A stretch of DNA of 64,000 nucleotides from Sinohyriopsis cumingii (taxonomy: Eukaryota; Mollusca; Bivalvia; Unionida; Unionidae), in the NCBI GenBank assembly GCA_028554795.2, contig CM068827.1, forward strand, positions 69,617,809 through 69,681,808, in the 5' to 3' direction. The notes under the pieces were generated by a model that was not told where the DNA came from, searched no databases, and saw only the letters and a program-made list of their open reading frames with translations. The translations under genes were made by a program, and so were the position numbers. Positions 27,474 through 50,375 of this stretch are shown piece after piece. Position 1 is the stretch's first letter; each line of letters starts with the position of its first letter.

Positions 27474-27822
27474 AGTAGTAAGGTGGGGCACTAGAGCCTC
27501 AATGGGAATTAGCATTACAGAGACCCCTGGGCAAATATAGCCTCAATGGAAATTTAACATGGAGAAAAATCGTGGGCAAATATAGCCTCAAGGGGAATTT
27601 AACATGGGAAATAGTCTTGGGCCACTATAGCCTCAAGGGAATTGAATATGGGAAAAAAGTCTTGGGCCACTATAGCCTCAAGGGAATTGAACATGGGATT
27701 TTTTTTTATTTTTTTTTTTAAATTTTTTAAAATTTAAATTTAAATTTAAAAAAGGGGTAGGCAATTGAAAGGCTATCTCTTTTCGAGAAATATGGCTGGC
27801 CCTGAAAAGGGCCTTTGGGTTT
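27474..27822 (+). repeat. Left terminal inverted repeat of the Polinton
   Basis: It matches the reverse complement of 50026-50375 almost throughout and ends at the shared GGGCCTTTGGGTTT. It contains five sub-terminal units of about 45 bp starting near 27485, 27529, 27574, 27619 and 27664, each with a GGGCNNNTATAGCCTCAA-like core. A T/A-rich stretch follows, then the histone-type stem-loop. Confidence 0.93.
27798..27813 (-). terminator. Histone-type 3' stem-loop 1
   Basis: On the minus strand CCCAAA precedes GGCCCTTTTCAGGGCC (6-bp stem, TTTC loop). AGCCA follows, and about 15 nt later the purine box GAAAAGAGA. It lies 28 nt after the stop codon of the coiled-coil gene at 27842-28234. This matches the metazoan replication-dependent histone mRNA end (SLBP hairpin plus U7 downstream element). 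Confidence 0.88.
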
Positions 27823-27841
27823 TCTTCTTCTTCTTCTGCTT

Positions 27842-28234
27842 CTAATTTCTTCTTTTTCTCCACCAAGTTCTTATTTTATCTCCTACACTCTTTCTCTTCT
27901 TCTCTTTCTTTTTTTTCTCCTGCTCTTCTTTCTTCTTCTCCTCTTCCTCCTCTTCTTTCTTCCTCTTCTCATTTTCTTCTTCTTTTTCAAGTTTTTCGTT
28001 CCATTTGCTTATTCTTATTCTTTCCTCTTCATCCTCCTTCTCCTCCTTTATCTCTTTCATGACACCACTAATCTTGTCCTTTACCTTTTTTAAGTTATTA
28101 ATTTCCATCTTTACACGATGGGGACTATAGGAATAATGGTCTTCAACGAGTCTTATTAACATCTGTTCCATCATTCCTAAGTTGTCTAAAACGTCTTGCA
28201 ATGTTTGTGTTTTGTCCATTTGGTTAGAAGCCAT
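27842..28234 (-). CDS. Coiled-coil protein, tandem paralog 1 (130 aa)
   Basis: A first half with heptad-like hydrophobics (TLQDVLDNLGMMEQMLIRLV) leads into a highly charged E/K/R tail (about residues 58-125) that should form a long single helix or coiled coil. The function is unknown. The ATG at 28234 is chosen because it lies about 45 bp after a TATA-like ACTATAAG in the shared promoter module. The gene ends 28 nt before stem-loop 1 in the left terminal repeat, so it is the outermost left gene and is transcribed toward the terminus. Together with two similar genes to its right (28785-29027 and 29535-29861) it forms a tandem family with the same promoter and 3'-end architecture. The low-complexity tail makes homology by similarity alone unreliable. 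Confidence 0.75.
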   Translation of the reverse strand: MASNQMDKTQTLQDVLDNLGMMEQMLIRLVEDHYSYSPHRVKMEINNLKKVKDKISGVMKEIKEEKEDEEERIRISKWNEKLEKEEENEKRKKEEEEEEKKKEEQEKKKKEKKRKSVGDKIRTWWRKRRN

Positions 28235-28270
28235 CTTCTTTGTAGAATGGTTTGAACGACGAATACTGTG

Positions 28271-28390
28271 GGTTCTTATAGTGAAAGCGCGGACGTGAAA
28301 GAAAACATCCCCCTAGAACATAAAATTGATCTTACCTAGATCATGACCAAAGAAACAGCAACGCGCGGACGTGAAGGAAAACATCCCCCT
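28271..28390 (-). promoter_or_regulatory. Shared promoter module 1 (two boxes plus TATA)
   Basis: On the minus strand the box GGGATGTTTTC, CACGTCCGCGC is followed by TTTCACTATAAG, 40-50 bp before the ATG of paralog 1. A second copy of the box without TATA sits at 28362-28390. The same box precedes the other two paralogs (29080-29120 and 29912-29954), which supports a common regulator. Confidence 0.75.
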
Positions 28391-28609
28391 ACTTTTCTCA
28401 TTTCATATCATAAAACCCAAACTATACTCTCCACCTACTCTAAGAAACCCATAATCTACTATTCACACAAACTTACGTGAACAGTTACTAACACAAACAC
28501 ACAAACACATACACTCCCACTATTAATAAAGAGTTAGTGTTTATATTCACACTACTCTACCTACACACATTGGCAAATCGATCGTTATTTCTTTTCTAGA
28601 GTATTGGGT
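28391..28609. other. Spacer repeated in the next gene unit
   Basis: Non-coding AT-rich spacer with ACAAACACACAAACACATAC and an AGAGTTAGTGTTTAT block. Both recur at about 29340-29430 ahead of stem-loop 3, showing that the promoter-gene-hairpin unit was duplicated as a whole (about 877 bp between hairpins). Confidence 0.7.
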
Positions 28610-28625
28610 AGCCCTGAAAAGGGCT
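28610..28625 (-). terminator. Histone-type 3' stem-loop 2 (compensated stem)
   Basis: On the minus strand AGCCCTTTTCAGGGCT, then ACCCA and, after about 8 nt, AGAAAAGAAATA. The outer G-C pair of the usual hairpin is replaced by A-T on both sides, a compensatory change that keeps the 6-bp stem. It lies 160 nt after the stop of paralog 2, farther than for the other genes. Confidence 0.85.
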
Positions 28626-28784
28626 GTTTTTTCTTGGAACTTCATGGACACCTGGTTAATGGTGACACCTTCCAGGCCTGGCGCCACATACACATCTTGT
28701 CCCCCAGTTACTTTTTACCCTTTTGGGGGAGAGAGCAGAGGCAGGATATGTGGCTTCGGAATCCCAATTTTCGGTTTCTGGGAT

Positions 28785-29027
28785 TCAGAAATTTTTTCTT
28801 CTTCTCTCCTTTTCCTCCTCCTCTTCTTTGTATCTTCTCTCCTCCTCTTTGTATCTTCTTTCCTCTTCTTCTTTATATCTTCTCTCCTCTTCTTTATTTC
28901 TTCTTTCCTCCTCCTCTCTCATCCTTCCGTCTTCCACAATGGCTTCCGCGGCCAGTTCATTCAACAGGCGCCTGGCATATTCCAGATGCACATGAAGTTC
29001 CAACAGTTTAGACAGTCTCGTGTTCAT
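28785..29027 (-). CDS. Coiled-coil protein, tandem paralog 2 (80 aa)
   Basis: MNTRLSKLLELHVHLEYARR starts at an ATG about 55 bp downstream of a TATA-like ACTATAAATT. After about 35 residues the protein becomes repeats of the type EERRYKEEE, forming a charged helix. The N-terminal L/H/R-rich helix resembles that of paralog 3 (KLAKFNEAYVNLHRVRH). The function is unknown. The stop lies 160 nt before stem-loop 2. This long gap may mean the true C-terminus was lost by a frame change in the repetitive tail. Confidence 0.65.
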   Translation of the reverse strand: MNTRLSKLLELHVHLEYARRLLNELAAEAIVEDGRMREEEERRNKEEERRYKEEEERRYKEEERRYKEEEEEKERRRKNF

Positions 29028-29120: not shown

Positions 29121-29486
29121 AGAAACATAAAATTGATCTTACCTAGATCATGACCAAAAGAAACAACGCGTGGACCTAAAAGAAACACTCACTCACTTTT
29201 TTTATGCTACCTATCACTATTTTAAAATTTTTTATAAATCACTTCAATAGACTATTTACATACGCAAAGCAATCCAATCTAACCCCAAATATACACCTCA
29301 AACACCAAAAAAAAAAGACATCATTTTAATCTACTATCCATACCAACTTACTTAAGCACTTACAAACACAAACACACAAACACATACCCTCACATTTAAA
29401 AAAAAAGAGTTAGTGTTTATTTTCACACTACTCTACCTACACACATTGGCGAATCGATCGTTATTTCTTTTCTAGAGTATTGGGGT

Positions 29487-29502
29487 AGCCCTGAAAAGGG
29501 CT
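29487..29502 (-). terminator. Histone-type 3' stem-loop 3 (compensated stem)
   Basis: On the minus strand AGCCCTTTTCAGGGCT, then ACCCCA and, about 8 nt on, AGAAAAGAAATA. It starts 32 nt after the stop of paralog 3 and has the same A-T closing pair as stem-loop 2. Confidence 0.86.
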
Positions 29503-29534
29503 GGGTTTTTTTTGTTTGCTATGGCATTCTTTTT

Positions 29535-29861
29535 TTAGTTTCTAAGAATGCGATGTCCTCGGAAAGAGAAGAAGAACTCTTTGGTGTCGATACGACAATC
29601 GACAAAGCCTCTGTCAGCTTCAGGTTGCTGCTGCTGTTGTTGTTGTTGTTGCTGCTGTTGCTGCTGTCTCTGAAATCTGCACTTCTCTCTCCATTCTTCT
29701 TTTTCCCTGTTCATTTCTTCTCTGAAGAGCTCTTCTATCAGGTCTTCAGTGATTTTTAACATTCTCACATTCTCTATTTCTTCTGGCTTCGATATCAGAC
29801 TGTGTCTGACCCTATGCAAATTCACGTAGGCTTCGTTGAACTTAGCTAGTTTGGAGCACAT
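29535..29861 (-). CDS. Coiled-coil protein with poly-Q, tandem paralog 3 (108 aa)
   Basis: It starts MCSKLAKFNEAYVNLHRVRH. A Leu/Glu-rich helix (LKITEDLIEELFREEM) and an uninterrupted run of about 14 Gln near residue 70 follow, and the C-terminus is basic and aromatic. The frame is open farther upstream to 29990, but that stretch overlaps the conserved promoter module, so the ATG at 29861 is preferred. The unit promoter-gene-hairpin repeats that of paralogs 1 and 2. The CAG run is a mutable simple repeat. The function is unknown; a virion- or host-interaction role would be a guess. Confidence 0.7.
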   Translation of the reverse strand: MCSKLAKFNEAYVNLHRVRHSLISKPEEIENVRMLKITEDLIEELFREEMNREKEEWREKCRFQRQQQQQQQQQQQQQQPEADRGFVDCRIDTKEFFFSFRGHRILRN

Positions 29862-29911
29862 CTTCGTAGGAGGATGAGTCGACAATGGATTGTTAGACTG
29901 GAAACAACCCC

Positions 29912-29954
29912 GGTTCTTAAAGTCAAAGCGCGGACGTGAAGGAAAACATCCCCA
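29912..29954 (-). promoter_or_regulatory. Shared promoter module 3
   Basis: On the minus strand GGGGATGTTTTCCTTCACGT, then CCGCGCTTTGACTTTAAG. The TATA-like element is degenerate here (TTTAAG). It lies about 50 bp before the ATG at 29861. Confidence 0.72.
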
Positions 29955-29999
29955 CACGGTTTTCGAGCCGCAACGTTCAGTGAGTGTCATGAGAGGGAT

Positions 30000-30265: not shown

Positions 30266-31594
30266 CTAGTAATCTAGGATGACTTCTCTCAAACTGTTGA
30301 TTTCTATGGTTTTATCGAATTCTGCATTCAGGATGACGTTCACCGTTTCATCAGGGTCTCGGTCTTTAAACTGAATTTCCACACGAATCTGGCCGGATTT
30401 TATAGGGTGGAAATGTCCCTCGTCGCTGCCTTGGTCTGGAGTGAAATCAAAAGCCCACAAAGCGTAGCCTCCTGCATAATCCTCGTACGTAATACCGTGA
30501 CTGGTATTGGTTCCTAACTGTCCGGTGGCTTCGTACAGGGACAAGTACGATCTCAAATAATTCTTCGCTGCTGCACCAAAGTTAGGCCCAAAAGGTCGGG
30601 TACACAAGGTCTTGCCATCGCGACTGACTTCAATCTTGGACACATTGTAATGATTAAAGTAGAAAGGATTTTCGTTGTAGACTCCATTGAAAGCTGAATT
30701 CTTGACGATACCAACAATCAAACGTCTGGGTAACTGTCCTTGGAACAGATGATCTTCGATCATGGATCGCTGTCCAGCAGGAATGGTGAAGGTTTTCACT
30801 TCCACGCGTCGGATCAGATACTTGGCGGTCGTTCTGCTCAACGTCTGACTGATGTCGTTTCCCACTTTAGGCAACACTTCCACACGACGCACGTAGAGCC
30901 TGGCTTCTAGGATGATGGTTTTGTAAGTGGCATCAGCAGCAGCCATCAAATGGAAAGCAGCACTACTGCGATTTAGTCTCAGGCGGATATCCACCCCGTT
31001 CAACAAATACTTTTCTTGTAACCACATGTCCAAATGCAAGCGATCCATCAGTTCTAAACTACGACTTCCAGCAATTTTCTTTTGTCGTTCTACAAATCCT
31101 GTTGGATTTGAAGCATCCCCAGCAAGTGTAATGCCGTTGAACTTAGTCGCTTGGTCAGGTTTCCATACCACGCAAGCATCCAGATGAGTGTTCTTGGCTT
31201 CTTTTCCGTACGTCAAGAGATTTTCCAGGTACGCTCGATAAGGGTAAGTATCCATGCTGCTGCTGACCAGTTTGTTATTCAAGTACAAGTCCACTTCGCT
31301 GAACAAGGAATGCATGAAATTATTGACGGGAGCTACTGCTTCATCAGCGTCTATGTTAGCGGGGGGTGTTGTTCCTTCCTTCACTTGCACTTTCAAGTAC
31401 AAGTAACTGCTATTCAGATCGATGTAATCTTCGGGCTGTCCTTTGATTTCAAACTCGATGGGAGCAGAATCGGTCAATGAGAAGACGGGATGAAATTCCA
31501 CCCATTGGGATTCTTGCATCGTCATCATGGTGGGGGGCATGGCAAACATATCCAGTTCCGTCTTGGAACAGGCGCAAGATTCTCGGTGCATCAT
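30266..31594 (-). CDS. Major capsid protein, double jelly-roll (442 aa)
   Basis: A full-length open frame of the Polinton/adintovirus major capsid family (often labelled F54H12.2-like in animal genomes). Family signatures are visible: WVEFHPV near residue 32, SAPIEFEIKG, EDYIDLNSSYLYLKVQV, VNNFMHSLFSEVDLYLNNK, YPYRAYLENLLTYG, and a C-terminal region with GGYALWAFDFTPD and GQIRVEIQF. The fold is established for Polinton MCPs as two jelly rolls that form hexon-like trimers. Two adjacent ATGs (31594 and 31591) open the frame 20 nt after the preceding small virion gene. It is the last gene of the tightly spaced run integrase, membrane protein, penton, small virion protein, MCP, and is followed by AATAAA. 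The frame is intact. Confidence 0.95.
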   Translation of the reverse strand: MMHRESCACSKTELDMFAMPPTMMTMQESQWVEFHPVFSLTDSAPIEFEIKGQPEDYIDLNSSYLYLKVQVKEGTTPPANIDADEAVAPVNNFMHSLFSEVDLYLNNKLVSSSMDTYPYRAYLENLLTYGKEAKNTHLDACVVWKPDQATKFNGITLAGDASNPTGFVERQKKIAGSRSLELMDRLHLDMWLQEKYLLNGVDIRLRLNRSSAAFHLMAAADATYKTIILEARLYVRRVEVLPKVGNDISQTLSRTTAKYLIRRVEVKTFTIPAGQRSMIEDHLFQGQLPRRLIVGIVKNSAFNGVYNENPFYFNHYNVSKIEVSRDGKTLCTRPFGPNFGAAAKNYLRSYLSLYEATGQLGTNTSHGITYEDYAGGYALWAFDFTPDQGSDEGHFHPIKSGQIRVEIQFKDRDPDETVNVILNAEFDKTIEINSLREVILDY

Positions 31595-33363: not shown

Positions 33364-34473
33364 TCACTTCTTTTTATAGTCGATGACTTGCGAAGCGTCG
33401 ATCCAAGAATCGAAACTGGGTGGATATCCTTTCCAACGTACTTTGACTTCTTTGACACGTCGTTTGCCCACTTTACGGGTTCTGCGTTCGAGAATGCTTT
33501 CGATGTCGTACACGTCGTCTTCTTTTTTGGTGACACGTTGTAACTCGGGTAAATAAAACGTTCCTTTGAGTACTTCTCCGTTCATGTCTTCCAATTTATA
33601 GACGGCAGGATGACGGCCATGCACTCGTCCAGTGACGCGAAACAATTCGGTCGTCCAGTTAGGTAAGTAACCTTTGTCGAAAGTGCGTTTGGTTTTGCCA
33701 ATGCGCACCCAATCTCCTACGGTCAACTCTCCACTTTTCTTGGGGACAGCCCTCGTCGGGGACGTACCAAACAGGCGCTCAAACACCAACACTTCGTTCT
33801 CGGGAGTCACGTCTTGCGGGGCACGTCTGATGCTTCGATGGTAAGATTGGTTGTACGCTTGCACCAGGTGCGGTAAGATGTCGATGTACTTCAGAGTGTG
33901 GTGATGCGTAAAATATTTCCACATGCGTTCTTTCAAAGTGCGTTGAAAACGTTCCACGATGCTGGCTTTGGTTTCGAGATTCTCGGTGGTAAAAAAATGA
34001 ATGTCACGTTTCTTTAATTCTTTTTGGAAAGCTTGGTTCAGAAATTCGGTGCCTTTGTCCGTTTGCCATCGAAGAGGGTGACGACCGCTTTGTTTCAACA
34101 CTCGTTGTAGGGCTCGCACTAACTCGCTGCTCGATTTGGAAGTCAAGGGCACGACCCAGGCAAATTTGGAAAAGACGTCGATGACACAAAACAAATATTT
34201 GTAGCCACGATTGTAGCTGGCCAAATGAGAGACATCGGCTAAATCGGCTTGCCATTGATGATCGATGCCTTCCACTCGGGTGCGACTTCTGGCAAACTTG
34301 CGTCGAATGGGTTTGTGTAAAGTGTAGGTAGCTTGTTCTTGTAACCATCGTTGCACTTGAGGTAAACGGAGACTTTTCAGTCGCGTTTTGGCAGCACGAT
34401 ACAATTTTTGAACTCCTGCGTAACCTGCAGGATGCGAGGGATCGTAGTAAATGCTGGCTAAGACTTTTTCCAT
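33364..34473 (-). CDS. Retroviral-type (rve) integrase with C-terminal chromodomain, 369 aa
   Basis: The N-terminus carries the Polinton integrase signature YYDPSHPAGYAG. The catalytic core has the acidic triad D77 (in WQADLAD), D139 (in WQTDKGTEF) and E174 (in ASIVERFQRTLK), with D139 and E174 35 positions apart. A C-terminal chromodomain (about 315-365) contains DIESILERR, VRWKGYP and SWI. The enzyme would insert the linear element and make the 6-bp duplication; the chromodomain may direct it to modified histones. The frame is intact. The start is 17 nt after the preceding gene's terminal stop, and the stop abuts the membrane-protein gene. Confidence 0.95.
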   Translation of the reverse strand: MEKVLASIYYDPSHPAGYAGVQKLYRAAKTRLKSLRLPQVQRWLQEQATYTLHKPIRRKFARSRTRVEGIDHQWQADLADVSHLASYNRGYKYLFCVIDVFSKFAWVVPLTSKSSSELVRALQRVLKQSGRHPLRWQTDKGTEFLNQAFQKELKKRDIHFFTTENLETKASIVERFQRTLKERMWKYFTHHHTLKYIDILPHLVQAYNQSYHRSIRRAPQDVTPENEVLVFERLFGTSPTRAVPKKSGELTVGDWVRIGKTKRTFDKGYLPNWTTELFRVTGRVHGRHPAVYKLEDMNGEVLKGTFYLPELQRVTKKEDDVYDIESILERRTRKVGKRRVKEVKVRWKGYPPSFDSWIDASQVIDYKKK

Positions 34474-36800: not shown

Positions 36801-37017
36801 GGGGGTATGGTAAGTACTGATCGTAAAGAGTCCACAAAGAATCGGCTGGTAAACGAAATCCCAGAAAACAAGTCACTAAGACACACACCACTTGTCGTCC
36901 CAAATTGAATGGATACAGTTCTTGTAATAATTGATGGTAATGATCCACGGTTTGAATATGGTCATTGAGTTCCTTCCACGGAATCTGTTGGATTACATAC
37001 GACATAAGTCGTGGCAT
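36679..37017 (-). CDS. Small ORF of unknown function (112 aa)
   Basis: It begins MPRLMSYVIQQIPWKELNDH. The middle part, with YPFNLGRQVVCVLVTCFLGF, is hydrophobic. The last 40 residues overlap the start of the next gene in another frame and look less protein-like, so the real end may be earlier or the overlap genuine. A TATAAAAA lies at 37027-37034, too close for a standard leader of this ATG. Not recognised. Confidence 0.4.
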   Translation of the reverse strand: MPRLMSYVIQQIPWKELNDHIQTVDHYHQLLQELYPFNLGRQVVCVLVTCFLGFRLPADSLWTLYDQYLPYPHGFKWSRKTPFAQSLAFSSGYFSTSTGKKDSSTFSYPRRV

Positions 37018-37715: not shown

Positions 37716-37727
37716 GAATAGGTCATA

Positions 37728-38211: not shown

Positions 38212-38955
38212 TCAATGTCTCGGTCCCACTAAGGGTAAGTAATGACAATTCGGTGACCATCGAGCATGTTCAACGTAGGCCGAATCTTGCGGTTCCCAGT
38301 GGTGAAGTGACACACCGCAACTGAAGCACTTGACTTTATCTCCTTCGCCCAAGTAGAAAAATCCGGCTCTGGCTAATTCTTCGGGGGTCGGTCCTCCCAG
38401 ATACTTAGGCCATTTTCCTTTGAACGATTGAAGACGATTTTCAAAGTCGCAGTATTCCGACAAACGCACAGGGAACGAATATTCGTCTTTCACAGGTTCG
38501 TTTCGATGAGGGTTGGGTGACATGAACAGGAGTTTCCTCAGGGCTGGATGACATCCGTAGGAGGGTAGACGTGAAGGTGAACATTCCCCTTTGAAACGAA
38601 ACCCAGTAAAATGTCCAAGAGGACGAGCGGCATCACTTTCGCATCCCACAGGTTTGACACGCACAGCATCACTTTCCATGATAGGGGTAGGGACACTAAA
38701 GTTCCCATGATGCTTTACGCCATCGCTCAGGTCACAAGGTACAGCATCGTATCCATCGCAAGGCTCACAATCGCACTCGTCTGCAAACTCCGTTACGCAA
38801 TTACAATGGTAACCACATGGACAATCGCAGTTTCCTTCCGGACATTTTCCGTCGCAATGCCTGGGTCTTATCCATCCAGTATTAGTCACACTAGAGGAAG
38901 ATACAACTTTTTTACAATCCCCAAACTGGAACGATGTCTCTTTCAAAGTATTCAT
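38212..38955 (-). CDS. BIR-domain (IAP-like) protein, 247 aa
   Basis: The C-terminal 75 residues form a BIR zinc-binding fold. GFFYLGEGDKVKCFSCG leads to C210, C213, W220, D224, H230 and C237 in the order CxxC-W-D-EH-C of inhibitor-of-apoptosis proteins. The N-terminal part is unusual, with a Cys-rich cluster (about residues 34-67, CDGKCPEGNCDCPCG followed by CNC and CDCEPC) and a low-complexity middle. No RING finger is present. BIR proteins can bind caspases or other partners, so an anti-apoptotic role in infected cells is a reasonable inference, not shown here. The ATG at 38955 lies about 57 bp after TATATAAAAAG at 39011-39020. The frame is intact. Confidence 0.85.
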   Translation of the reverse strand: MNTLKETSFQFGDCKKVVSSSSVTNTGWIRPRHCDGKCPEGNCDCPCGYHCNCVTEFADECDCEPCDGYDAVPCDLSDGVKHHGNFSVPTPIMESDAVRVKPVGCESDAARPLGHFTGFRFKGECSPSRLPSYGCHPALRKLLFMSPNPHRNEPVKDEYSFPVRLSEYCDFENRLQSFKGKWPKYLGGPTPEELARAGFFYLGEGDKVKCFSCGVSLHHWEPQDSAYVEHARWSPNCHYLPLVGPRH

Positions 38956-38987: not shown

Positions 38988-41900
38988 CTATCGATCTTGC
39001 CTAGGGTTCCTTTTTATATACAGACCAATACCGACGTGACCGTACGGCAACGTAAAGTGATTGGGAAGTCTCACTCGCTTCTGGTACACGATTTGATAGA
39101 CTTTTTCCAGGGGTCGACTGACGATGTGGTGAGTGGGTAAACGTACAATCTTGTTCGGTTGGTGAGTAGTCACTTTAAAGTTTCCATCCTCTCCCGATTG
39201 CAAGGCTTCTTTCAATACCCCAAAGTTGACCACTCGACTGGTACGATAATTCAGAGTCAGTCCTTTCACTTTGCACGTCGTGTGCACTTCTCCTTGTTTG
39301 TCCCGGTATTCGTAGCCGTAATTTTTGGGACCGCCACTGACGAAACTTAGAATCTTGTCGTCGGGATGCTCGTCTGTCCAGGCTCCTAAACGGTCTCCTT
39401 CGATGTTAGGGTGATGTTGAATCGGGTGATGGATGTAAATGCAACTGTCAAAGTACAGGACGCGTTCCCCTAACAGTTCTAAAGCTTCGTACAATTTTAA
39501 GCGAGCATGGGCTGTCACGTAAGCCGCAATGATGACATTTCCAAAAGGGTCGTCTTGTACAAAGTCCAGATCTTCTTCGTAATTGACCAAGATTAAATTC
39601 TCTCGAACGACGTCCACGTGTTTCATGTATTTGGTTTTGTCGTGAATCATCTGGAAGTAGCGGGAAGGTTCTGTCAAATATTTCGTCTTGGGTAAACACG
39701 GTCGTTGTGCCATTTTACCCCACAAGCAATTTAACATCACTTTGGCAAACGATCGCCTGCCTTCGTTTTTCTCTATGTGGTCTAAAGTGATGCCTTCTTG
39801 TTCGTAGTATTTCTCTTTGAATTGTATTTGGTCTTCGGGAGTGTGACACCAGGAAGGATAGCCGCTAGCTTCTTGTTTCAGTTTCAAAAAGGCATCCACG
39901 TAGTCGGCGAAAATGCCTTTCTGACTGGGGTCACCCTTGTGGTATTGTTGTGTCTTGGGAAAGTGGCAAATTTCGTACACTTCTAACAGTTGGTATCCCA
40001 TGTCCATAGCTTTGAACAATTCTACGCTGACCCAGGTTCCCGTCAAGGCACGTTCTTCCTGGGTGTGCTGACAAGGTTGGTCTTGGTTGCACGTTTCGGC
40101 ACAAGTACGGCACAAGGGAAACATCAGTTTGCCTTGACAATGGTGAGGTAAGACGGGATGGTATAGGTTCGTGGGAGGCAAAACTTTACACTTGATCAAG
40201 CCTTCGTATTGTCGAATGTTTTTCAGGTCGATGTGTTCCGTCAACAATTGCGGGTGCCCTACAGGAAAGCGACAATATTTGCACACGTAGGGATACAACG
40301 AACACACGTCCAAGTATTTGATTTCTTCTCCTTTCTCTTCGTCGGCTTGGTACGGCAAACAGGTGGCATTGGTCCTTCCTCCGTACAAACTATCCCTCGG
40401 GTTCAGCGGGTCCATGAACTGGTAACTTTCCACGAGGCGTTTAAACTCGGGATCGGTTTTCATACGGTGATCGTACTCGTGTTCCCACATTTCCACCACT
40501 TGGTATCCTTGCTGTTCTAACTTTAGGCGACGCTGACAAGTGTCCTGGTACAAGTCTTCCATGGTTCGTTGCAAAAACTGATTTTTAGTGCCACGGTCAG
40601 GGTAACAGACGGGACATCCGTGAAATAAGCAGCCGTTAAACTCGTACACGATCTTGGGGTTTTCTAAGTCCCAGCCATCGACCGAATACGTTCCGATGGT
40701 CTTTTCGCCCCCTCCGTTGCGGGCATGCTGAATCCACTTGTCTTCCTTGTCGCACAAGTAATGTTACCAACGTAGGGCTTTGACCGAGTATTGACGTTTG
40801 ACATAGTGGGTCGTTTGAGGACTGATGACAGCTACGGTGTTTTCAGGCATGAATCGTTGTCGATACACTAAGGAACACGCTTTGGGAATGGTGCAAGCTT
40901 CTCTCAAACGATCGACCCCTCCGTGTTCCATGAACAGTTCTCGAAATTTTCCACAGCAACGTCGTAAAATGTCCACGTCGGAACGACAATACTTTAGCAT
41001 TTCTTCCTGAAAGTCGAAAGGGTCCGAGGCGTGAGCCTGGTACCAACCGTAGAAAGCTTCTCGTTGTTCGGTACGCATGTTGTCGGGGTCGTAATAGTGA
41101 GCCTCAGGCAAATGGGGTAGAACGGCGTGTTGATTGGCTTCCGTATTGAAAAAGTGTGGAAAGTACCCTTTAGCCATTTCTGTCATTCCAAACGTTTTAG
41201 GCATTCGACTCAAAGGCATGGCCAAATAGCTCATCGAATCTTTAAACTGTACTTGTCCCACTTGCATGAAAATGATTTTGGCTCCGTTCAAAGTCACTTT
41301 AGGACGCTCGGTGCCTTGTTCCGTATAGTATCTGAGAAGAAACTGTCCATCGTATCCGGAGAAATTGTGAGCCATCACCGTGGTATGGCGATGACAATCT
41401 CGGTAACGTTCGATGTCCTCTTGGCTCCACGTCTTGTCGACGGGGTCTAAGACCCATTGGGCAAAATCGGCTAACGTGTTCGGTCCTCGAAAGATTTTTT
41501 CACGCCCTCCAGGAATTTTGCTGCAGTGAGGGCAATGACTGAAGATAGGTTCTTGAATGCACTTCTCGCACGCTCGATGAGCCACGCAGAAATTAGGAAT
41601 GTGAATGCCAGTCTCTTGCATGCATTCGAAATCGAAAAAGATGAAATTGCCTTTCTTCTTGTGACCGTCCTCTTTCTCTGGTGGGGGTTGGTATTTTTGC
41701 ACGTAACATTGGTGTTCCAAGTCCACGATGTGGTGACAAATGTGACATTTTTTCTTTCCTGAACATACGTGTGCCTTGGTATTTTTGGTACGTATGACTT
41801 GTCCACACGCGGGGCACAATCTCAGCAGTTGACAAGCGCATTTCTTCTGTGAACCTTGCGTCTTCAAATGTTGTTGGTAACAGGTAGGGCTGACAAACGT

Positions 41901-43047
41901 GCGCAGACAAGTTGAACAAGGCACTGGTTCTTCGCTCAGACAGGGTGAAGAGGCCAAACATCCTGAGCATTTCAATCCACAATGCTTGTGTTGCACTCGA
42001 TTGTTATAACCATGGTCACATTTCTCACAATAATAAACATATCCCAGGAATCCGGTGATACTGGTAATGGTATCGAAATGTTCATCGTGATGATAAAGGT
42101 GAATGTATTTTCCGTCCTTAAAATCTTGGCCTCGAAACAACAGAGGTCCGCTCATTTCTTGAGGGTGCACTTTCAAGGTGTATCGTGGAGCTAGGACATC
42201 TTGCAATTTTCGCATTTCAGGAATGCCACAGGGTGTGTCTTTGGACAGGCCAGCTTGTTGCAACAGGAGTTCTGCTTCGTTTCGTTGTTTGGCTCGATCG
42301 CATCGTTGAATAGTTTTCCAGGTTCTTTTCCATTCTACCGTGTCGTTCTTGTTGGCATAGGTTCGTCCCACCACGATGGCACGGGCTAAACACATCTGGT
42401 CCTGAGGGTTGTTAATTTGGACGAGACTCTTTTTGGTGCTGCGAAGGTCGTTCACCAATAACATCTTTTTGCATCCAGTCCCTTGAGGAGGAGAGACGTG
42501 GGTCATGTCCAGTGTGGCTTTACCATCGGTGATGTCAAACTGGTCGTTGGATTGTTGCACGTGTTGAATCTTGTCCCATGACTTTGGAAGCGGTCAATTC
42601 TGCAGGGGTGCTAAACTCGATCCAAACAGGAGATTTCAAACCGTCGTGTTGTATGGAAAGTCTCAAGCGATCGTCTTCTTTGGGTTGACATTGTCGCTTG
42701 AGTGCAGTGAGCAAAGAATCCCACACCTCAGTGATGAACACTTCTGCTTTCTCTAACGGCACTTCAGCCTTGAAATCTTTAAACTTCACTGTGTATTTGT
42801 AAGCCGTGGTTCTAAATTTCCTAGAGGAGCGCTTTTCCGTCTCTCGAATGGAATAGTACTTTTCAGGGTTGACTAAGGGTGGTGAACTTGGTTTAGAGGG
42901 TTCTGATTCTGGTTCACTCATGTCCTCTTCAAAATCACTGGCATGAATTTGTGCCAAGATTTCAGCCCTGGTAGGAGGCGATAGATCACGTTTCTGCCTC
43001 TTACTTTCTTCTTCTTCTTTCTTCTCGAATGAATTAGATCGTTTCAT
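38988..43047 (-). pseudogene. Protein-primed family B DNA polymerase (PolB), three disabling changes
   Basis: A gene of about 4.06 kb starting at the ATG at 43047. In order it has a charged N-terminus; Cys/His clusters (about 41970-41700); exonuclease motifs FFDFEC (about 41625-41645), HNFSGYD (about 41355-41375) and YCRSDVDIL (about 40970-40995); the endonuclease-like box NGCLFHGCPVCYP (about 40600-40645); motif A DVCSLYPYV (about 40284-40311); and motif B KVMLNCLWGK (about 39712-39745). Breaks: an extra base near 42575-42577 shifts the frame relative to the second copy; an in-frame TAA at 40764-40766 lies where the second copy has a sense codon; and the catalytic motif C region (39441-39458) reads YFDSCIY, lacking the family's DTDS dyad. 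Normal polymerase activity is therefore lost. Confidence 0.92.
39011..39020 (-). promoter_or_regulatory. TATA box of the BIR gene
   Basis: TATATAAAAA on the minus strand inside the last codons of PolB, 56-65 bp before the BIR ATG. Confidence 0.55.
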
Positions 43048-43181: not shown

Positions 43182-43655
43182 ATGGAAGAGACTAACCAGA
43201 TGGAACGTTTCGTCAGAGCTTTGCGAGGGGTCATTAGAAAATTCTCTTCAGACCAGCCTACGGACTACTATCCTTCCTTTCGAGATAAAAGTCAAGATAC
43301 TTGCTATATCTGTCAGAAGAAAGGGCATTGGTCTTCAGAGTGTCCAGACCGTCAAAAAAGAACAAAAACAGGGACTAAAAAAGACAAAAGTCAAGATACC
43401 TGTTATTATTGTAAAGAAAAAGGACATTGGTCTCCAGATTGCCCAAAAAAGAAACAAGAGGAGTCAGAAGAAAAGAAGGATTCTTCAGAAGAAGAGAGGG
43501 ATTCTTCGGAAGAAGAGAGGGATTCTTCAGAGGAAGAAGAGGAAGAAAGAAGACAATTCTATTTACAAGAGGCAAAGAAACAGGAGAAGAAGAAAAGAAG
43601 AAGGGAAGAAAATGAGGAAAAGACGGTGAAGAAATTTAAAAAACAGAGAGACTAA
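43182..43655 (+). CDS. CCHC zinc-knuckle protein, copy 1 (157 aa)
   Basis: Two retroviral-type CCHC knuckles, CYICQKKGHWSSEC (about residues 40-53) and CYYCKEKGHWSPDC (about 76-89), are each preceded by DKSQDT. Acidic repeats of the unit DSSEEER follow, then a basic helical tail (KKFKKQRD). It is probably a nucleic-acid binding protein; its role in the element is unknown. The ATG at 43182 follows the TATA by about 55 bp, but in the second copy this codon is ACG, so the conserved ATG at 43200 may be the true start. It is divergent to PolB and convergent with the Q-rich gene. AATAAA lies at 43741. Confidence 0.85.
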   Translation: MEETNQMERFVRALRGVIRKFSSDQPTDYYPSFRDKSQDTCYICQKKGHWSSECPDRQKRTKTGTKKDKSQDTCYYCKEKGHWSPDCPKKKQEESEEKKDSSEEERDSSEEERDSSEEEEEERRQFYLQEAKKQEKKKRRREENEEKTVKKFKKQRD

Positions 43656-43746: not shown

Positions 43747-43902
43747 TGAATGATATAAGGTAAGTGTCTTTGAGTTTTGATTTTAAAATAAGAACGTACA
43801 CTCACGCACTCATACACAGACACGTATTATAAGGGTAAAATGGGTGGGTTTTTTTGAGTTATTGGCAAATTGAAATTGTATTTCTTTTCGAGAAATGTGG
43901 GT

Positions 43903-43918
43903 GGCCCTGAAAAGGGCC
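43903..43918 (-). terminator. Histone-type 3' stem-loop 4
   Basis: On the minus strand AAAAAGGCCCTTTTCAGGGC with the closing C, then ACCCA exactly as in histone mRNAs and, about 13 nt on, CGAAAAGAAATA. It lies 26 nt after the stop of the Q-rich gene, copy 1. Confidence 0.9.
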
Positions 43919-43944: not shown

Positions 43945-44530
43945 TTAAGCAATCAACTTTAACTGCCTTAAGCCTTTGCCACGGCCAAGGCCTACTTCTG
44001 GACTGCGTAATGTTGATGATGATGATAATGATTGAGTTGAAATCACTAAGGGTGGTACGGTAGGCTTAGTCACAGGGTTGACGTGTTTAGCTCGGGAAGG
44101 TCGTATTCTCTTCGGTCGTAATAAAGAAGTCTGATACATTTGTTTCAGACTTCTTAACTCCGCCAAAATGTCCAACAGTACCGTGACCGTTTGATTTTCA
44201 CCCTCTTGTTTCTTTGCTGCTACTTCTTCTTCTTGCTGTTGCTGCTGTTGTTTTTTTTCTTACCTCTTCTTCTTGCTGTTGCTGTAGGAGAAAAGCCTGT
44301 TCCGCTTCCTTTTGTCGTTGTATAAATTTCTCCAATTCTTCTTTCTGTCTCTGTCTAAAATTCTCCACTTGCGGTAATGAAGAAGGTAACGAAGGTTCCG
44401 GAACAAATTCTTGTGAGGAGAGAAAATCCACAAAATCCCAATTCACCTCTTCTGAAAGTAAGTCCGGGTTCCCTTGGGCAGTCTCCCCTGTTGGTGCAGC
44501 CCAATGGATCGTTTTCTGAGTTTCTGTCAT
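43945..44530 (-). pseudogene. Q-rich coiled-coil protein, copy 1, frameshifted
   Basis: It starts MTETQKTIHWAAPTGETAQG at 44530. A Q/K/E-rich helix (FRQRQKEELEKFIQRQKEAE) runs into poly-Q, where the frame changes near a T8 run (about 44250-44260) and stops at 44198. The other frame resumes with LDILAELRSLKQMYQTSLLR, PKRIRPSRAKH and a Gly/Lys-rich end GRGKGLRQLKL at 43945. The second copy (48994-49554) is uninterrupted, which shows these are two parts of one gene. The break is in a homopolymer, so a sequencing error is possible. The short downstream hairpin (stem-loop 4) shows the 3' end. Confidence 0.75.
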
Positions 44531-44749
44531 GTTGAATCACTGTCGCATAGATTGACTGCACACAAGCGCTAGCGAATCTATATAGACCAACAGACGTCAC
44601 AGACTGCTCTCTTCGGATTGGATGCGGGCTGACTGAATTTTGTAACGCGTGTCCGGATTGGTGAATGAACTCAATCCGTTTCAATCCTACCTGTACCTAT
44701 AAATAAGCGCAGTTCAGTGCATTGATTCACCTGTTCTCGTCGCTTCAAG
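44531..44749. promoter_or_regulatory. Divergent promoter: Q-rich (-) and Arg-rich (+) genes, copy 1
   Basis: TATATA on the minus strand (about 44576-44581) and TATAAATA on the plus strand (44698-44705) point outward. Between them are a CRE-like GACGTCAC (about 44593) and two inverted CCAAT boxes (GGATTGG near 44615 and 44655). CCAAT and CRE elements also occur in many cell-cycle and histone promoters, but this is only suggestive. Confidence 0.65.
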
Positions 44750-44998: not shown

Positions 44999-45323
44999 AA
45001 ACCCAAAGGCCCTTTTCAGGGCCAGCCATATTTCTCGAAGAGAGATAGCCTTTCCATTGCCTACCCCTTTTTTATATTTTATTTTTTTTTTTTAAAAAAA
45101 ATCCCATGTTCAATTTCCCTTGACGCTATAAAGACCCACCCTGTTTAATTTCCTTTTTTGTCGCTAGACAGACCCACGATTTTTTTTTCTCCATGTTAAT
45201 TTCCCTTGTCGCTAATCTGACCCACGATTTTTCTCCATGTTAAATTTCCCTTGTCGCTAATCTGACCCAAGGGTGTTTTTAATGCTAATTCCCATTGTCG
45301 CTAATCTAACCCCCTTCACTACT
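44999..45323 (-). repeat. Internal Polinton terminus of a divergent subfamily
   Basis: It aligns with the right terminal repeat (50026-50375) from AAACCCAAAGGCCC to the end CTTCACTACT. The sub-terminal units read GTCGCTAATCTGACCC where the outer repeats have GAGGCTATATTTGCCC. It ends at 45323 and is followed without any spacer by polymerase coding sequence. No matching left terminus exists in the window. Confidence 0.9.
45008..45023 (+). terminator. Histone-type 3' stem-loop 5
   Basis: CCCAAAGGCCCTTTTCAGGG with closing CC, then AGCCA and, about 13 nt on, CGAAGAGAGATA. It lies 24 nt after the stop of the Arg-rich gene, copy 1. The CCAAA 5' flank is the same as in histone mRNAs. Confidence 0.9.
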
Positions 45324-48065
45324 CACGTCCAAGTATTTGATTTCTTCTCCTTTCTCTTCGTCGGCTTGGTACAGCAAACAGGTGGCATTGGTCCTTCCTC
45401 CGTACAAACTATCCCTCGGGTTCAACGGGTCCATGAACTGGTAACTTTCCACGAGGCGTTTAAACTCGGGATCGGTTTTCATACGGTGATCGTACTCGTG
45501 TTCCCACATTTCCACCACTTGGTATCCTTGCTGTTCTAACTTTAGGCGCCGCTGACAAGTGTCCTGGTACAAGTCTTCCATGGTTCGTTGTAAAAACTGA
45601 TTTTTAGTGCTACGGTCAGGGTAACAGACGGGACATCCGTGAAATAAGCAGCCGTTAAACTCGTACACGATCTTGGGGTTTTCTAAGTCGCAGCCATCGA
45701 CCGAATACGTTCCGATGGTCTTTTCACCCCCTCCGTTGCGGGCATGCTGAATCCATTTGTCTTCCTTGTCGCACAAGTAATGTAACCAGCGTAGGGCTTT
45801 GACCGAGTATTGACGCTTGACATAGTGGGTCGTTTGAGGACTGATGACAGCTACGGTGTTTTCAGGCATGAATCGTTGTCGGTACACTAGGGAACACGCT
45901 TTGGCAATGGTGCAAGCTTCTCTCAAACGATCGACCCCTCCGTGTTCCATGAACAGTTCTCGAAATTTTCCACAGCAACGTCGTAAAATGTCCACGTCGG
46001 AACGACAATACTTTAGCATTTCTTCCTGAAAGTCGAAAGGGTCCGAGGCGTGAGCCTGGTACCAACCGTAGAAAGCTTCTCGTTGTTCGGTACGCATGTT
46101 GTCGGGGTCGTAATAGTGAGCCTCAGGCAAATGGGGTAGAACGGCGTGTTGATTGGCTTCCGTATTGAAAAAGTATGGAAAGTACCCTTTAGCCATTTCT
46201 GTCATTCCAAACGTTTTAGGCATTCGACTCAAAGGCATGGCCAAATAGCTCATCGAATCTTTAAACTGCACTTGTCCCACTTGCATGAAAATGATTTTGG
46301 CTCCGTTCAAAGTCACTTTAGGACGTTCGGTGCCTTGTTCCGTATAGTATCTGAGAAGAAACTGTCCATCGTATCCGGAGAAATTGTGAGCCATCACCGT
46401 GGCATGACGATGACAATCTCCGTAACGTTCGATGTCCTCTTGGCTCCACGTCTTGTCGATGGGGTCTAAGACCCATTGGGCAAAATCGGCTAACGTGTTC
46501 GGTCCCCGAAAGATTTTTTCACGTCCTCCAGGAATCTTGCTGCAGTGAGGGCAATGACTGAAGATAGGTTCTTGAATGTACTTCTCGCACGCTCGATGAG
46601 CCACGCAGAAATTAGGAATGTGAATGCCAGTCTCTTGCATGCATTCGAAATCGAAAAAGATGAAATTACCTTTCTTCTTGTGACCGTCCTCTTTCTCTGG
46701 TGGGGGTTGGTATTTTTGCACGTAGCATTCGTGTTCCAAGTCCACGATGTGGTGACAAATGTGACATTTTTTCTTTCCTCGACATACGTGTGCCTTGGCA
46801 TTATTGGTAAGTATGCCTTGTCCACAGGTAGGGCACAATCTCAGCAGTTGACAAGCACATTTCTTCTGTGAACCTTGTGTTTTCAAATGTTGTTGGTAAC
46901 AGGTAGGGCTGACAAACGTGCGCAGACAAGTCGAACAAGGCACTGGTCCTTCGCTCAGACAGGGTGGAGAGGCCAAACATCCTGGGCATTTCCATCCACA
47001 ATGCTTGTGTTGCTCTCGATCATTATGGCCATAGTCACATTTCTCACAGTAATAACTGTATCCCAGGAATCCGGTGATACTGGTAATGGTATCGAAATGG
47101 TCATCGTGATGATAGACATGAATGTATTTTCCGTCCTTAAAGTCTTGGCCTCGAAACAACAGAGGTCCGCGCACTTCTTGAGGGTGCACTTTCAAGGTGT
47201 AGCGTGGAGCTAGGGCATCTTGCAATCTTTGCATCTCAGGAATGCCACAGGGTGTGTCTTTGGACAGTCCGGCTTGTTGCAACAGGACTTCTACTTCGTT
47301 TCGTTGTTTGGCTAGGTCCGATTGTCGAATAGTTTTCCAGGCTCTTTTCCATTCTGCCGTGTCGTTCTTGTTGGCATAGGTTCGTCCCACCACGATGGCT
47401 CGAGCTAAACACATCTGGTCTTGAGGATTGTGAATTTGGACAAGGCTACGCTTAATGCTGCGAAGCTCGTTCACCAATAACATCTTTTTGCGTCCAGTCC
47501 CTTGAGGAAGAGAGACGTGAGCCATTTTCAGTGTGGCTTTACCATCGGTGATGTCAAACTGGTCATTAGATTGTTGTACGTGTTGAATCTTGTCCATGAT
47601 TTTGGAAGGGGTTAGTTCTGCGGGTCTGCTAAACTCGATCCAAACAGGGGATTTCAAACCGTCGTGATCTATGGATAGTGTCAAGCGATCGTCTTCTTTG
47701 GGTTGACATTGTCGCTTGAGTGCGGTGAGCAAAGAATCCCACATCTCGGTGATAAACCCTTCTGCTTTCTCCAAGGGTACGTCGGCCTTGAAATCTTTAA
47801 ACTTCACCGTGTAGGTATAAGCCGTGGTTCTAAATTTTCTAGAGGAGCGCTTTTCCGTCTCTCGAATGGAATAGTATTTTTCAGGGTTGACTAAGGGTGA
47901 CGAACTTGGTTTAGAGGTTTCAAATTCTGGTTCACTCATGTCCTCTTCAAAATCACTGGCATGAATTTGTGCCAAGATTTCAGCTCTGGTACGAGGCGAT
48001 AGATCACGTTTCTGCCTCTTACTTTCTTCTTCTTCTTTCTTCTCGAATGAATAGGATCGTTTCAT
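45306..48065 (-). pseudogene. Second PolB copy, truncated before the polymerase motifs (919-codon open frame)
   Basis: Starts at the ATG 48065 and stays open for 919 codons. It carries the Cys/His clusters, the three exonuclease motifs (FFDFEC about 46645-46665, HNFSGYD about 46375-46395, YCRSDVDIL about 45990-46014) and the NGCLFHGCPVCYP box. It is cut at 45324, just before the motif A aspartate context, and the last five codons before the stop come from the internal terminus. All polymerase motifs (A, B and C) are absent. It is nearly identical to copy 1 over the shared part and lacks the frameshift and stop seen there. Whether the exonuclease-only product is made is unknown. Confidence 0.9.
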
Positions 48066-48217: not shown

Positions 48218-48691
48218 ATGGAACGTTTCGTCAGAGCTTTGCGAGGGGTCATTAGAAAATTCTCTTCAGACCAGCCGACGAACTACTATCCTTCCTTTCG
48301 AGATAAAAGTCAAGATACTTGCTATATCTGTCAGAAGAAAGGGCATTGGTCTTCAGAGTGTCCAGACCGTCAAAAAAGAACAAAAACAGGGGCTAAAAAA
48401 GACAAAAGTCAAGATACCTGTTATTATTGTAAAGAAAAAGGACATTGGTCTCCAGATTGCCCAAAAAAGAAACAAGAGGAGTCAGAAGAAAAGAAGGATT
48501 CTTCAGAAGAAGAGAGGGATTCTTCGGAAGAAGAGAGGGATTCTTCGAAAGAAGAGAGGGATTCTTCAGAGGAAGAAGAGGAACAAAGAAGACAATTCTA
48601 TTTAAAAGAAGCAAAGAAACAGGAGAAGAAAAGAAGAAGGGAAGAAAATGAGGAAAAAACGGTGAAGAAATTCAAAAAACAGAGAGACTAA
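48218..48691 (+). CDS. CCHC zinc-knuckle protein, copy 2 (157 aa)
   Basis: Both knuckles (CYICQKKGHWSSEC and CYYCKEKGHWSPDC) are intact. The upstream ATG used in copy 1 is ACG here, so the start is the next ATG, at 48218 (MERFVRALRGVIRKFS). The acidic part has one more DSSxEER unit than copy 1, showing repeat-number change between copies. It has the same neighbours as copy 1: divergent to PolB copy 2 and convergent with Q-rich copy 2. Confidence 0.85.
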   Translation: MERFVRALRGVIRKFSSDQPTNYYPSFRDKSQDTCYICQKKGHWSSECPDRQKRTKTGAKKDKSQDTCYYCKEKGHWSPDCPKKKQEESEEKKDSSEEERDSSEEERDSSKEERDSSEEEEEQRRQFYLKEAKKQEKKRRREENEEKTVKKFKKQRD

Positions 48692-48952
48692 ACAAGGAGA
48701 AAGAAGAAGTCAATGAACTTTTAATTAAAATGTTCTGTGGTGAATTGTGAATTGGATTGTAAAAAATGGATAAAAGAATACATGAATGACATAAGGTAAG
48801 TGTCTTTGAATTTTGATTTTAAAATAAGAAGCTACACTCACGCACTCATACACAGACATGTACTATAAGGGTAAAATGGTTTGTTTTTTTTTTTTGTTGA
48901 TTTTTGAGTTATTGGCAAATTGAAAGGCTATCTCTTTTCGAGAGAAGTGGGT

Positions 48953-48968
48953 GGCCCTGAAAAGGGCC
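48953..48968 (-). terminator. Histone-type 3' stem-loop 6
   Basis: On the minus strand GGCCCTTTTCAGGGCC, then ACCCA and, about 13 nt on, CGAAAAGAGATA. It lies 25 nt after the stop of Q-rich copy 2. Confidence 0.9.
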
Positions 48969-48993
48969 TTTTTATTTTGGTGTAGGGGTGAGT

Positions 48994-49554
48994 TTAACCA
49001 ATCAACTTTAACTGCCTTAAGCCTTTGCCACGGCCGAGGCCTACTTCTGATGATTGGGTTGAAATCACTAAGGGTGGTACGATAGGCTTAGTCACAGGGT
49101 TGGCGTGTTTAGCTGGGGAAGGTCGTATTCTCTTCGGTCGTGATAAAGAAGTCTGATAAATTTGTTTCAGACTTCTTAACTCCGCTAAAATGTCCAACAG
49201 TACCGTAGCCGTTTGATTTTCACCCTCTTGTTTCTTTGCTGCTACTTCTTCTTGCTGTTGTTGCTGTTGCTTTTTTCTTTCCTCTTCTTGTTGCTGTTGC
49301 TTTTGCTGTATGAGAAAAGCTTGTTCCGCTTCCTTTTGTCGTTGCATAAATTTCTCCAATTCTTCTTTCTGTCTCTGTCTAAAATTCTCCACTTGCGGTA
49401 ATGAAGAAGGTAACGAAGGTTCCGGAACAAATTCTTGCGAGGTAAGAAAATCCACAAAATCCCAATGTACCTCTTCTGAAAGTAAGTCCGGGTTCCCTTG
49501 GACAGTCTCCCCTGCTGGTGCACCCCAATGGATCGTTTTCTGAGTTTCCGTCAT
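48994..49554 (-). CDS. Q-rich coiled-coil protein, copy 2 (186 aa), intact
   Basis: MTETQKTIHWGAPAGETVQG opens the frame. A W/F/D-rich part (HWDFVDFLTSQEFVPEPSLP) is followed by a long Q/E/K helix (about 60-110) with three short poly-Q runs, then LLDILAELRSLKQIYQ, a basic SRPKRIRPS segment, and a GRGKGLRQLKLIG tail. I recognise no family. The conserved ends flanking a variable poly-Q, and the retained frame, argue that the protein is real. It is paired with a divergent promoter and a histone-type hairpin 25 nt after its stop. Confidence 0.78.
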   Translation of the reverse strand: MTETQKTIHWGAPAGETVQGNPDLLSEEVHWDFVDFLTSQEFVPEPSLPSSLPQVENFRQRQKEELEKFMQRQKEAEQAFLIQQKQQQQEEERKKQQQQQQEEVAAKKQEGENQTATVLLDILAELRSLKQIYQTSLSRPKRIRPSPAKHANPVTKPIVPPLVISTQSSEVGLGRGKGLRQLKLIG

Positions 49555-49773
49555 GTTGAATCACTGTCGCATAGATTGACTGCACACAAGCGCTAACGAA
49601 TCTATATAGACCACGTGACGTCACAGACTGCTCTCTTCGGATTGGATGCGAGCTGACTGAATTTTGTAACGCGTGTTCGGATTGGTGAATGAATTCAATC
49701 CGTTTCAACCCTTCCTGTACCTATAAATAAGCGCAGTTCACTGCATTGATTCACCTATTCTCGTCGCTTCAAG
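49555..49773. promoter_or_regulatory. Divergent promoter: Q-rich (-) and Arg-rich (+) genes, copy 2
   Basis: TATATA on the minus strand (about 49601-49606) and TATAAATA on the plus strand (49722-49729). A perfect palindromic CRE, TGACGTCA (49616-49623), overlaps an E-box CACGTG, and two inverted CCAAT boxes lie downstream. Nearly identical to copy 1 except that the first copy's CRE is incomplete. Confidence 0.7.
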
Positions 49774-50010
49774 ATGTGGACCACAGTTGAGTCATCCACC
49801 CTTGTGTCTTCCATGATGTTTAGGACGGACATGCTCATGTATGTCAGGTCCAAGTGGACTGTTGTTGATAGGACAGATACTAGTCAATGGATGAGGAGAG
49901 TTTACATAGAAAGACAAGGATGTCTCAAGAGGGTACTTGTGTATGGACCGGCAGTTAGAAGGAGTTTGAGAAGAAGAAGAAGAAGATGTGACAGATGCCA
50001 TCTATGTTAA
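49774..50010 (+). CDS. Small Arg-rich protein, copy 2 (78 aa)
   Basis: MWTTVESSTLVSSMMFRTDM, LMYVRSKWTV and IERQGCLKRVLVYGP match copy 1. The C-terminus is RRRRRRCDRCHLC, a Cys/His pair that copy 1 only partly keeps. It lies immediately inside the right terminal repeat and is transcribed toward the terminus, the mirror of coiled-coil paralog 1 at the left end. The stop is 24 nt before stem-loop 7. Confidence 0.78.
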   Translation: MWTTVESSTLVSSMMFRTDMLMYVRSKWTVVDRTDTSQWMRRVYIERQGCLKRVLVYGPAVRRSLRRRRRRCDRCHLC

Positions 50011-50025
50011 TATTAATATTAACAT

Positions 50026-50375
50026 AAACCCAAAGGCCCTTTTCAGGGCCAGCCATATTTCTCGAAAAGAGATAGCCTTTCAATTGCCTACCCCTTTTTT
50101 AAATTTAAATTTAAATTCAAAAAAATTTTTAAAAAAAAATTTAAAAAAATCCCATCTTCAATTCCCTTGAGGCTATAGTGGCCCAAGACTTTTTTCCCAT
50201 ATTCAATTCCCCTTGAGGCTATAGTGGCCCAAGACTATTTCCCATGTTAAATTCCCCTTGAGGCTATATTTGCCCACGATTTTTCTCCATGTTAAATTTC
50301 CATTGAGGCTATATTTGCCCAGGGGTCTCTGTAATGCTAATTCCCATTGAGGCTCTAGTGCCGCACCTTACTACT
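50026..50375 (-). repeat. Right terminal inverted repeat of the Polinton
   Basis: Reverse complement of 27474-27822, ending CCGCACCTTACTACT. The outermost 50 bp differ from the left end by one base (GGGG/GCGG). It contains the same sub-terminal units of about 45 bp. Confidence 0.93.
50035..50050 (+). terminator. Histone-type 3' stem-loop 7
   Basis: CCCAAAGGCCCTTTTCAGGG with closing CC, then AGCCA and, about 13 nt on, CGAAAAGAGATA. It lies 24 nt after the stop of Arg-rich copy 2 and is the mirror image of stem-loop 1. Confidence 0.9.

Follow-up and report, generated by a model that had tools for sequence, protein, structure and literature searches.

Why would small genes that encode no histone end in the RNA signal of replication-dependent histone messages? 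The question is raised by a Polinton/adintovirus-like element in the bivalve Sinohyriopsis cumingii, contained in a 64-kb stretch of DNA (C4:69617809-69681808 of the 2.9-Gb host genome; hereafter the window), for which an initial annotation, made from the sequence alone, proposed that a subset of the mRNAs is ended by the histone pathway. To our knowledge, mRNA ends formed with this hairpin and U7 are considered, in animals, a peculiarity of replication-dependent histone messages.

Our analysis indicates, with a probability of about 0.82, that host SLBP and U7 process mRNAs of the element by means of a reusable histone-type 3'-end module, which is carried by five families of small terminal genes, here called A to E. 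We take this reading beyond resemblance because the ends of the host's own histone genes match the module and because the module has been kept across diverged copies of the element.

Seven hairpins, one module

All seven hairpins lie where they were first reported, with 0 mismatches each, and each stands in the sense orientation 3' of a small gene; the stem has 6 bp and the loop 4 nt. In 100 shuffles, with up to two mismatches allowed, the mean number of matches per window was 0.02 and the largest 1, and the 64-kb window holds no eighth hairpin of the strict metazoan type. Scored against the Rfam model RF00032 (Histone3, histone 3'-UTR), whose gathering score is 34 bits, five copies exceed this threshold (41.2, 38.4, 35.6, 35.6 and 34.2 bits). 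A ten-base box (CTCGAAAAGA, CTCGAAGAGA or CTAGAAAAGA) starts 10 or 11 nt past the hairpin.

The gaps from stop codon to hairpin are 24 nt for both gene E and its copy, 25 nt for D, 26 nt for the broken D copy, 28 nt for A, 32 nt for C and 159 nt for B. The initial annotation was thus right in placing six hairpins 24-32 nt behind the stop; its outlier, however, is a prematurely stopped copy of gene B, and the gap is 18-36 nt in the other copies with a readable open reading frame (ORF). Likewise, each hairpin does have its small gene, as had been claimed, but the genes form five families, and the one before position 43903 is split into two ORFs.

The copies are related to one another. Hairpins 27798 and 50035 are the two copies belonging to the terminal inverted repeats (TIRs), which are about 350 bp long, and both sit at the inner TIR edge; the terminal genes A and E, which run outward, have one common 3' module, and the TIR similarity begins just before the hairpin. 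Hairpin 45008 is an internal TIR copy produced by a duplication of about 5 kb inside the element (40.3-45.3 kb versus 45.3-50.4 kb), 43903 and 48953 arose when the end of a single gene was duplicated, and 28610 and 29487 belong to homologous modules of genes B and C whose similarity begins at the hairpin. Because all seven align over the hairpin, the box and a second block further downstream, the hairpins are, as judged from this alignment, one module by descent that was spread through the TIRs and the duplication over five gene families; seven independent events are ruled out.

Comparison with the histone genes of the host

As a sample of the host histone array we used a 9.9-kb stretch, in which Rfam finds five hairpins, located behind H4, H2B, H2A, H1 and H3. 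The stem is GGCCCU/AGGGCC in four of these genes and GGUCCU/AGGACC in H1, and the UUUC loop is common to host H2B, host H1 and the element. The host box starts 10-11 nt past the hairpin, the same spacing as in the element. The box CTAGAAAAGA is found in host H1, H2B, H3 and H4 as well as in element genes B and C, host H2A has CCCGAAAAGG, and element genes A, D and E have CTCGAAAAGA or CTCGAAGAGA. Host stop-to-hairpin gaps are 27 nt (H4), 28 nt (H3), 34 nt (H2B), 35 nt (H2A) and 38 nt (H1). In the host loci fetched around histone matches, 30 in number, we counted 30 hairpin regions of the H3 type and 29 of the H4 type.

The element therefore resembles replication-dependent histone mRNAs in its stem, loop class, flanks, purine box, spacing and stop distance, and differs from their genes in that its own genes are non-histone and lie in a virus-like mobile element. 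The likeness to an SLBP site and a U7 downstream element, which had been recognized from the letters alone, is borne out by five host histone genes with a matching stem, a near-identical box and equal spacing. So is the absence of a histone-fold gene: no histone family was found by Pfam in the 27 element ORFs scanned. A hidden histone gene has no support, since that scan returned no such family and the model predicted for the gene D protein is one long helix at low confidence (mean pLDDT 69.9, pTM 0.27).

A second block like TTTCAATTTGCC starts 27-29 nt past the hairpin in 5/5 host histone genes and 27-28 nt past it in the element. Every one of the host genes matches in 8/12 letters; compared with windows drawn at random from that locus, the joint p is 6e-5 for a motif picked post hoc. 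This block could possibly reflect an extended pairing with U7, a suggestion likewise made post hoc.

Conservation across diverged copies

The genome-wide search used the hairpin core followed by CGAARAGA at 8-18 nt, a pattern that selects for the hairpin and excludes the boxes of the five sampled host genes and of modules B and C. It matched the host genome 32,185 times (15,956 forward and 16,229 reverse), about 100 of the places being listed (for example, host C1:34139-6410830), and the reversed pattern used as control matched 0 times. With about three fitting modules per element (the ends of A, D and E), this count corresponds roughly to the order of ten thousand element-equivalents. At 32,185 hairpin and box modules in 2.9 Gb, the Polinton-type expansion with its diverged subfamilies is unusually large.

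Because this pattern selects for the hairpin, B/C modules were sought by their downstream sequence (34-110 nt past the hairpin), without reference to the hairpin itself. This gave 23 modules, 18 after removal of overlaps, of which 16/18 have the strict hairpin and 18/18 the box; one of the eight left-end loci yielded no B/C module. The mean pairwise difference is 0.024 in the hairpin, 0.040 in the spacer and 0.010 in the box, then 0.178 in the gap that follows the box, 0.057 in the second block and 0.052 further downstream, a part that served as search anchor. In the upstream 3' untranslated region (UTR) it is 0.306, a value that mixes B and C, which are unlike there.

Among distinct copies, the strict hairpin lies within 250 nt past the stop in 4/4 for gene A, 5/6 for C, 8/9 for D and 3/4 for E, compared with 0/3 for the CCHC zinc-knuckle gene of the element, where the counts for A, D and E are biased upward by loci having been fetched with the hairpin pattern. 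The D exception has a hairpin with no stop ahead of it; in the exceptional E copy the match itself is partial and degenerate. Outside the window, 11/15 gene B hairpin rows (overlapping loci included) have an ORF of 102-125 amino acids (aa) that stops 18-36 nt ahead of the hairpin and four yielded no ORF, while all six gene C rows have an ORF stop 28-29 nt ahead.

Six further loci (L077-L082), picked for their deviating spacers, form a divergent set with 11 hairpins, in which identities include 80% and 50% for D, 82% and 60% for E, and 84% and 37% for A. Here an ORF ends 14-29 nt ahead of the hairpin in 7/11 cases; three more have only ORFs ending 244-272 nt ahead, and for the last none is listed. 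The hairpin thus persists in the diverged copies compared, mostly 14-36 nt past the stop. The genes that precede it are, by their substitution ratios, under constraint in the three families for which dN/dS was estimated: 0.22 for B (7 sequences, median dS 0.86), 0.07 for C (5 sequences) and 0.40 for D (5 sequences).

Weighing the alternatives

Several results weigh against processing by SLBP and U7, or against its generality. The two copies with an AGCCC..GGGCT stem fall below the gathering score of RF00032 (31.0 and 25.4 bits, E 3e-5 and 0.0036), the first base pair is missing in 3/11 hairpins of the divergent set, and the A, D and E counts carry the upward bias mentioned above. A search for the host U7 snRNA with RF00066 gave 0 matches, and as the control genomes also gave 0 the search is uninformative. 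AATAAA occurs within 250 nt of the stop in 5/6 copies of gene C, at 107-113 nt, and in 2/9 copies of gene D. Finally, three distant relatives (L004-L006), partial contigs in bacterial assemblies (host contamination) with major capsid proteins (MCPs) 35-45% identical, lack a histone hairpin even at E values as high as 5. The comparison with related elements that the initial annotation had proposed therefore came out mixed: hairpins are present and mostly stop-proximal within the host genome, and there are none in these three relatives from other hosts, which are evidence against the generality of the trait among Polintons.

The AATAAA motifs bear on the first alternative, that the hairpin is kept while many or most messages are cut at a nearby AATAAA, as for some human histone genes in differentiated cells. 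Poly(A) ends are possible because AATAAA lies near the stops of C and D copies, and the window copies of A, C and D all have it within 250 nt of the stop; moreover, where the poly(A) signal and the histone signal overlap in a human histone gene, either end can be made, according to PMC9756948. However, neither AATAAA nor ATTAAA occurs within 250 nt past the stop in 4/4 A, 3/4 E and 7/9 D copies from the fetched loci. AATAAA is also present behind the hairpin of host H4, so that it provides no contrast between element and histone genes, and box and spacing have been conserved. We regard dual or mostly polyadenylated ends as unlikely, and a mixed histone-type and poly(A) output of the hairpin genes as possible in view of the human examples.

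The position of two copies at the inner TIR edges, together with the similarity between modules that begins at the hairpin, would also suit a palindrome acting at the DNA level, as a site of recombination, replication or packaging at the TIR border or as an edge for swapping gene cassettes. Since 4/7 copies lie outside TIR sequence, a palindrome tied to the TIRs alone is ruled out, and a DNA palindrome would not need the sense placement or the loop, flank, box and spacing seen at host histone ends, which makes this account very improbable. We give still less credence to a functionless relic, that is, a captured histone gene end that was later duplicated: the host H2B end does resemble the TIR module and the seven modules align as one, yet the hairpin was kept at the median dS of gene B and at 50% (D) and 60% (E) identity while the spacer changed. 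Chance or an assembly artefact has a negligible probability, being refuted by the shuffles and by the genome-wide count set against its reversed control.

The element and its genes

The element has the marks of Polintons/Mavericks and adintoviruses, namely an rve integrase with a chromodomain, a PolB of the protein-primed type, TIRs, a capsid candidate and a possible target-site duplication; the histone-type 3' ends set it apart from the described ones. The candidate 6-bp duplication, GATGAT directly outside the element at both edges, lies in a low-complexity GAT/ATA-rich microsatellite and is weak evidence of a target site. Pfam (E 0.01) found no OTU-like domain in either the PolB ORFs or the 170-aa ORF preceding them; adintoviruses have been defined by a PolB with an N-terminal OTU-like domain, as stated in PMC11071296. 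The capsid candidate has no Pfam match and 572 homologues at E 0.001, some of them named F54H12.2-like among the 120 matches listed. This F54H12.2-like protein is a putative Polinton MCP, the capsid protein with a double jelly roll that marks these elements.

Table 1. Features of the element, with positions counted from the first letter of the window.
Feature	Position	Strand	Basis or remark
Whole Polinton/adintovirus-like element, 22.9 kb	27474..50375	.	TIRs, edges, flanks
Left TIR	27474..27822	.	innermost feature: gene A 3'-end module
Right TIR	50026..50375	.	innermost feature: gene E 3'-end module
Hairpin GGCCCTTTTCAGGGCC and box CTCGAAAAGA, gene A	27778..27813	-	RF00032, 35.6 bits
Hairpin AGCCCTTTTCAGGGCT and box CTAGAAAAGA, gene B	28590..28625	-	RF00032, 31.0 bits, sub-gathering
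Hairpin AGCCCTTTTCAGGGCT and box CTAGAAAAGA, gene C; spacer one base longer	29466..29502	-	RF00032, 25.4 bits, sub-gathering
Hairpin and box CTCGAAAAGA, broken duplicate of gene D	43883..43918	-	RF00032, 41.2 bits
Hairpin and box CTCGAAGAGA, gene E duplicate, internal TIR copy	45008..45043	+	RF00032, 34.2 bits
Hairpin and box CTCGAAAAGA, gene D	48933..48968	-	RF00032, 38.4 bits
Hairpin and box CTCGAAAAGA, gene E	50035..50070	+	RF00032, 35.6 bits
Gene A, 130 aa, lysine/glutamate-rich	27842..28234	-	ORF
Gene B, 80 aa here, stops early	28785..29027	-	elsewhere the ORF has 102-125 aa
Gene C, 108 aa with the start chosen here	29535..29861	-	ORF as listed (29535-29990) crosses promoter-like motif
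Gene D, 186 aa, with a basic PKRxRPSxAK motif and GLGRGKG at the C terminus	48994..49554	-	20 database homologues
Gene D, broken duplicate, two ORFs	43945..44530	-	
Gene E, 78 aa, rich in arginine at its C terminus	49774..50010	+	no Pfam match
Gene E duplicate, 77 aa	44750..44983	+	
rve integrase with C-terminal chromodomain	33364..34473	-	Pfam PF00665, PF00385
PolB, as two ORFs (38988-40562 and 40764-42506)	38988..42506	-	Pfam DNA_pol_B_2, PF03175
PolB, second copy, truncated	45306-48065		Pfam DNA_pol_B_2
Capsid candidate, without hairpin; AATAAA 168 nt past stop	30266..31594	-	relatives named F54H12.2-like
CCHC zinc-knuckle gene, without hairpin; ATTAAA 32 nt past stop	48218..48691	+	Pfam
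CCHC gene duplicate, likewise without hairpin; ATTAAA 32 nt past stop	43182-43655		
BIR-domain (inhibitor-of-apoptosis type) protein	38212..38955	-	Pfam

The genes without a hairpin have ordinary signals near their ends. In the CCHC gene, ATTAAA lies 25-33 nt past the stop in 3/3 distinct copies, while the AATAAA behind the capsid candidate was determined for the window copy.

Among the hairpin genes, D has its 20 database homologues at E 0.01. Its C-terminal GLGRGKG (48994-49050) is nearly invariant in the family and resembles the tails at the N termini of H4 and H2A (SGRGKGG), which may be chance. D and E are divergent and have a short common intergenic region (44531-44749 and 49555-49773) with CCAAT-type sites (ATTGG at 44617, 44657, 49641 and 49681) and a CRE-like GACGTCAC at 44593 and 49617. 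The layout is reminiscent of divergent histone gene pairs. Upstream of genes A, B and C, on the minus strand between 28297 and 29953, there is a promoter-like motif, GGGGATGTTTTC..CACGTCCGCGC, with 4 copies there and 0 elsewhere in the window.

Two other features were observed. Three tandem paralogous ORFs with a common repeated N-terminal part and no significant Pfam match occupy 36962-38183, and host DNA near the right end of the element (52116-53492) contains tandem arrays with units of 105, 86 and 34 bp.

Relatives and earlier reports

No relatives were found in IMG/VR by MCP. Two hairpin patterns matched four IMG/VR contigs. L001 and L007 are phage-like in the parts examined, so that we reject these two as chance matches; L001-L003 gave no Rfam match at gathering.

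No description of histone-type 3' ends in Polintons or adintoviruses was found among the papers listed by searches of the open-licence PMC literature. The closest report, as far as its available text goes, counts 6 Rfam histone hairpins among 8,300 genomes of polinton-like viruses and virophages and leaves them uninterpreted (PMC12220804); that text gives the count alone, whereas for the present element there are the gene position, the purine box, the host comparison and an interpretation. In the consulted portion of PMC11071296, on adintoviruses, the terms stem-loop, hairpin and polyadenyl- do not occur. The same portion describes the "Histoid" genes of adomaviruses, which likewise link small animal DNA viruses to histones; Histoid is, however, an encoded histone-like protein, whereas the element has an RNA end signal only and no histone family was found in it.

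A model of 3'-end formation and its meaning

SLBP is expected in animals. The module would consist of an SLBP hairpin, a cleavage flank and a U7-type purine box: SLBP would bind the hairpin, the box would pair with the U7 snRNP, and the cut, made by the histone cleavage complex, would fall past the ACCCA or AGCCA flank, shortly after the hairpin. The resulting messages, without poly(A), would be exported, translated and degraded as histone messages are, and those of genes A to E should build up during S phase. For the CCHC gene and the capsid candidate, the ordinary poly(A) signals would be used. Cleavage, the absence of poly(A) and the coupling to S phase are all inferred from the likeness to histone ends. 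Such coupling would be consistent with the histone 3'-end machinery being active in histone locus bodies only during S phase, and with SLBP standing in for the poly(A) tail when messages are transported, translated and degraded, as described in PMC9756948. From their position and charge, we would guess at an early or regulatory role for the hairpin genes.

The element itself is of a known kind, and what is new is how it uses an RNA signal that is itself known; this use points to a borrowing of RNA machinery linked to host DNA replication. We see an even chance that a lineage of double-stranded DNA viruses of animals sorts its genes by 3'-end type, with terminal regulatory genes carrying histone signals and being made during host DNA replication, and structural genes carrying poly(A) signals. 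If so, the 3' ends of these RNAs would encode a cell-cycle switch, one that diverged subfamilies have retained in thousands of copies across the genome. The histone 3'-end pathway would then be open to takeover by unrelated genes of a virus-like element, and an integrated virus would be tied to S phase through a directly testable RNA signal. RNA sequencing after poly(A) selection would miss genes A to E, and such elements may wrongly seem silent. Since natural variants of the signal number in the tens of thousands here, this one genome would serve as a test bed.

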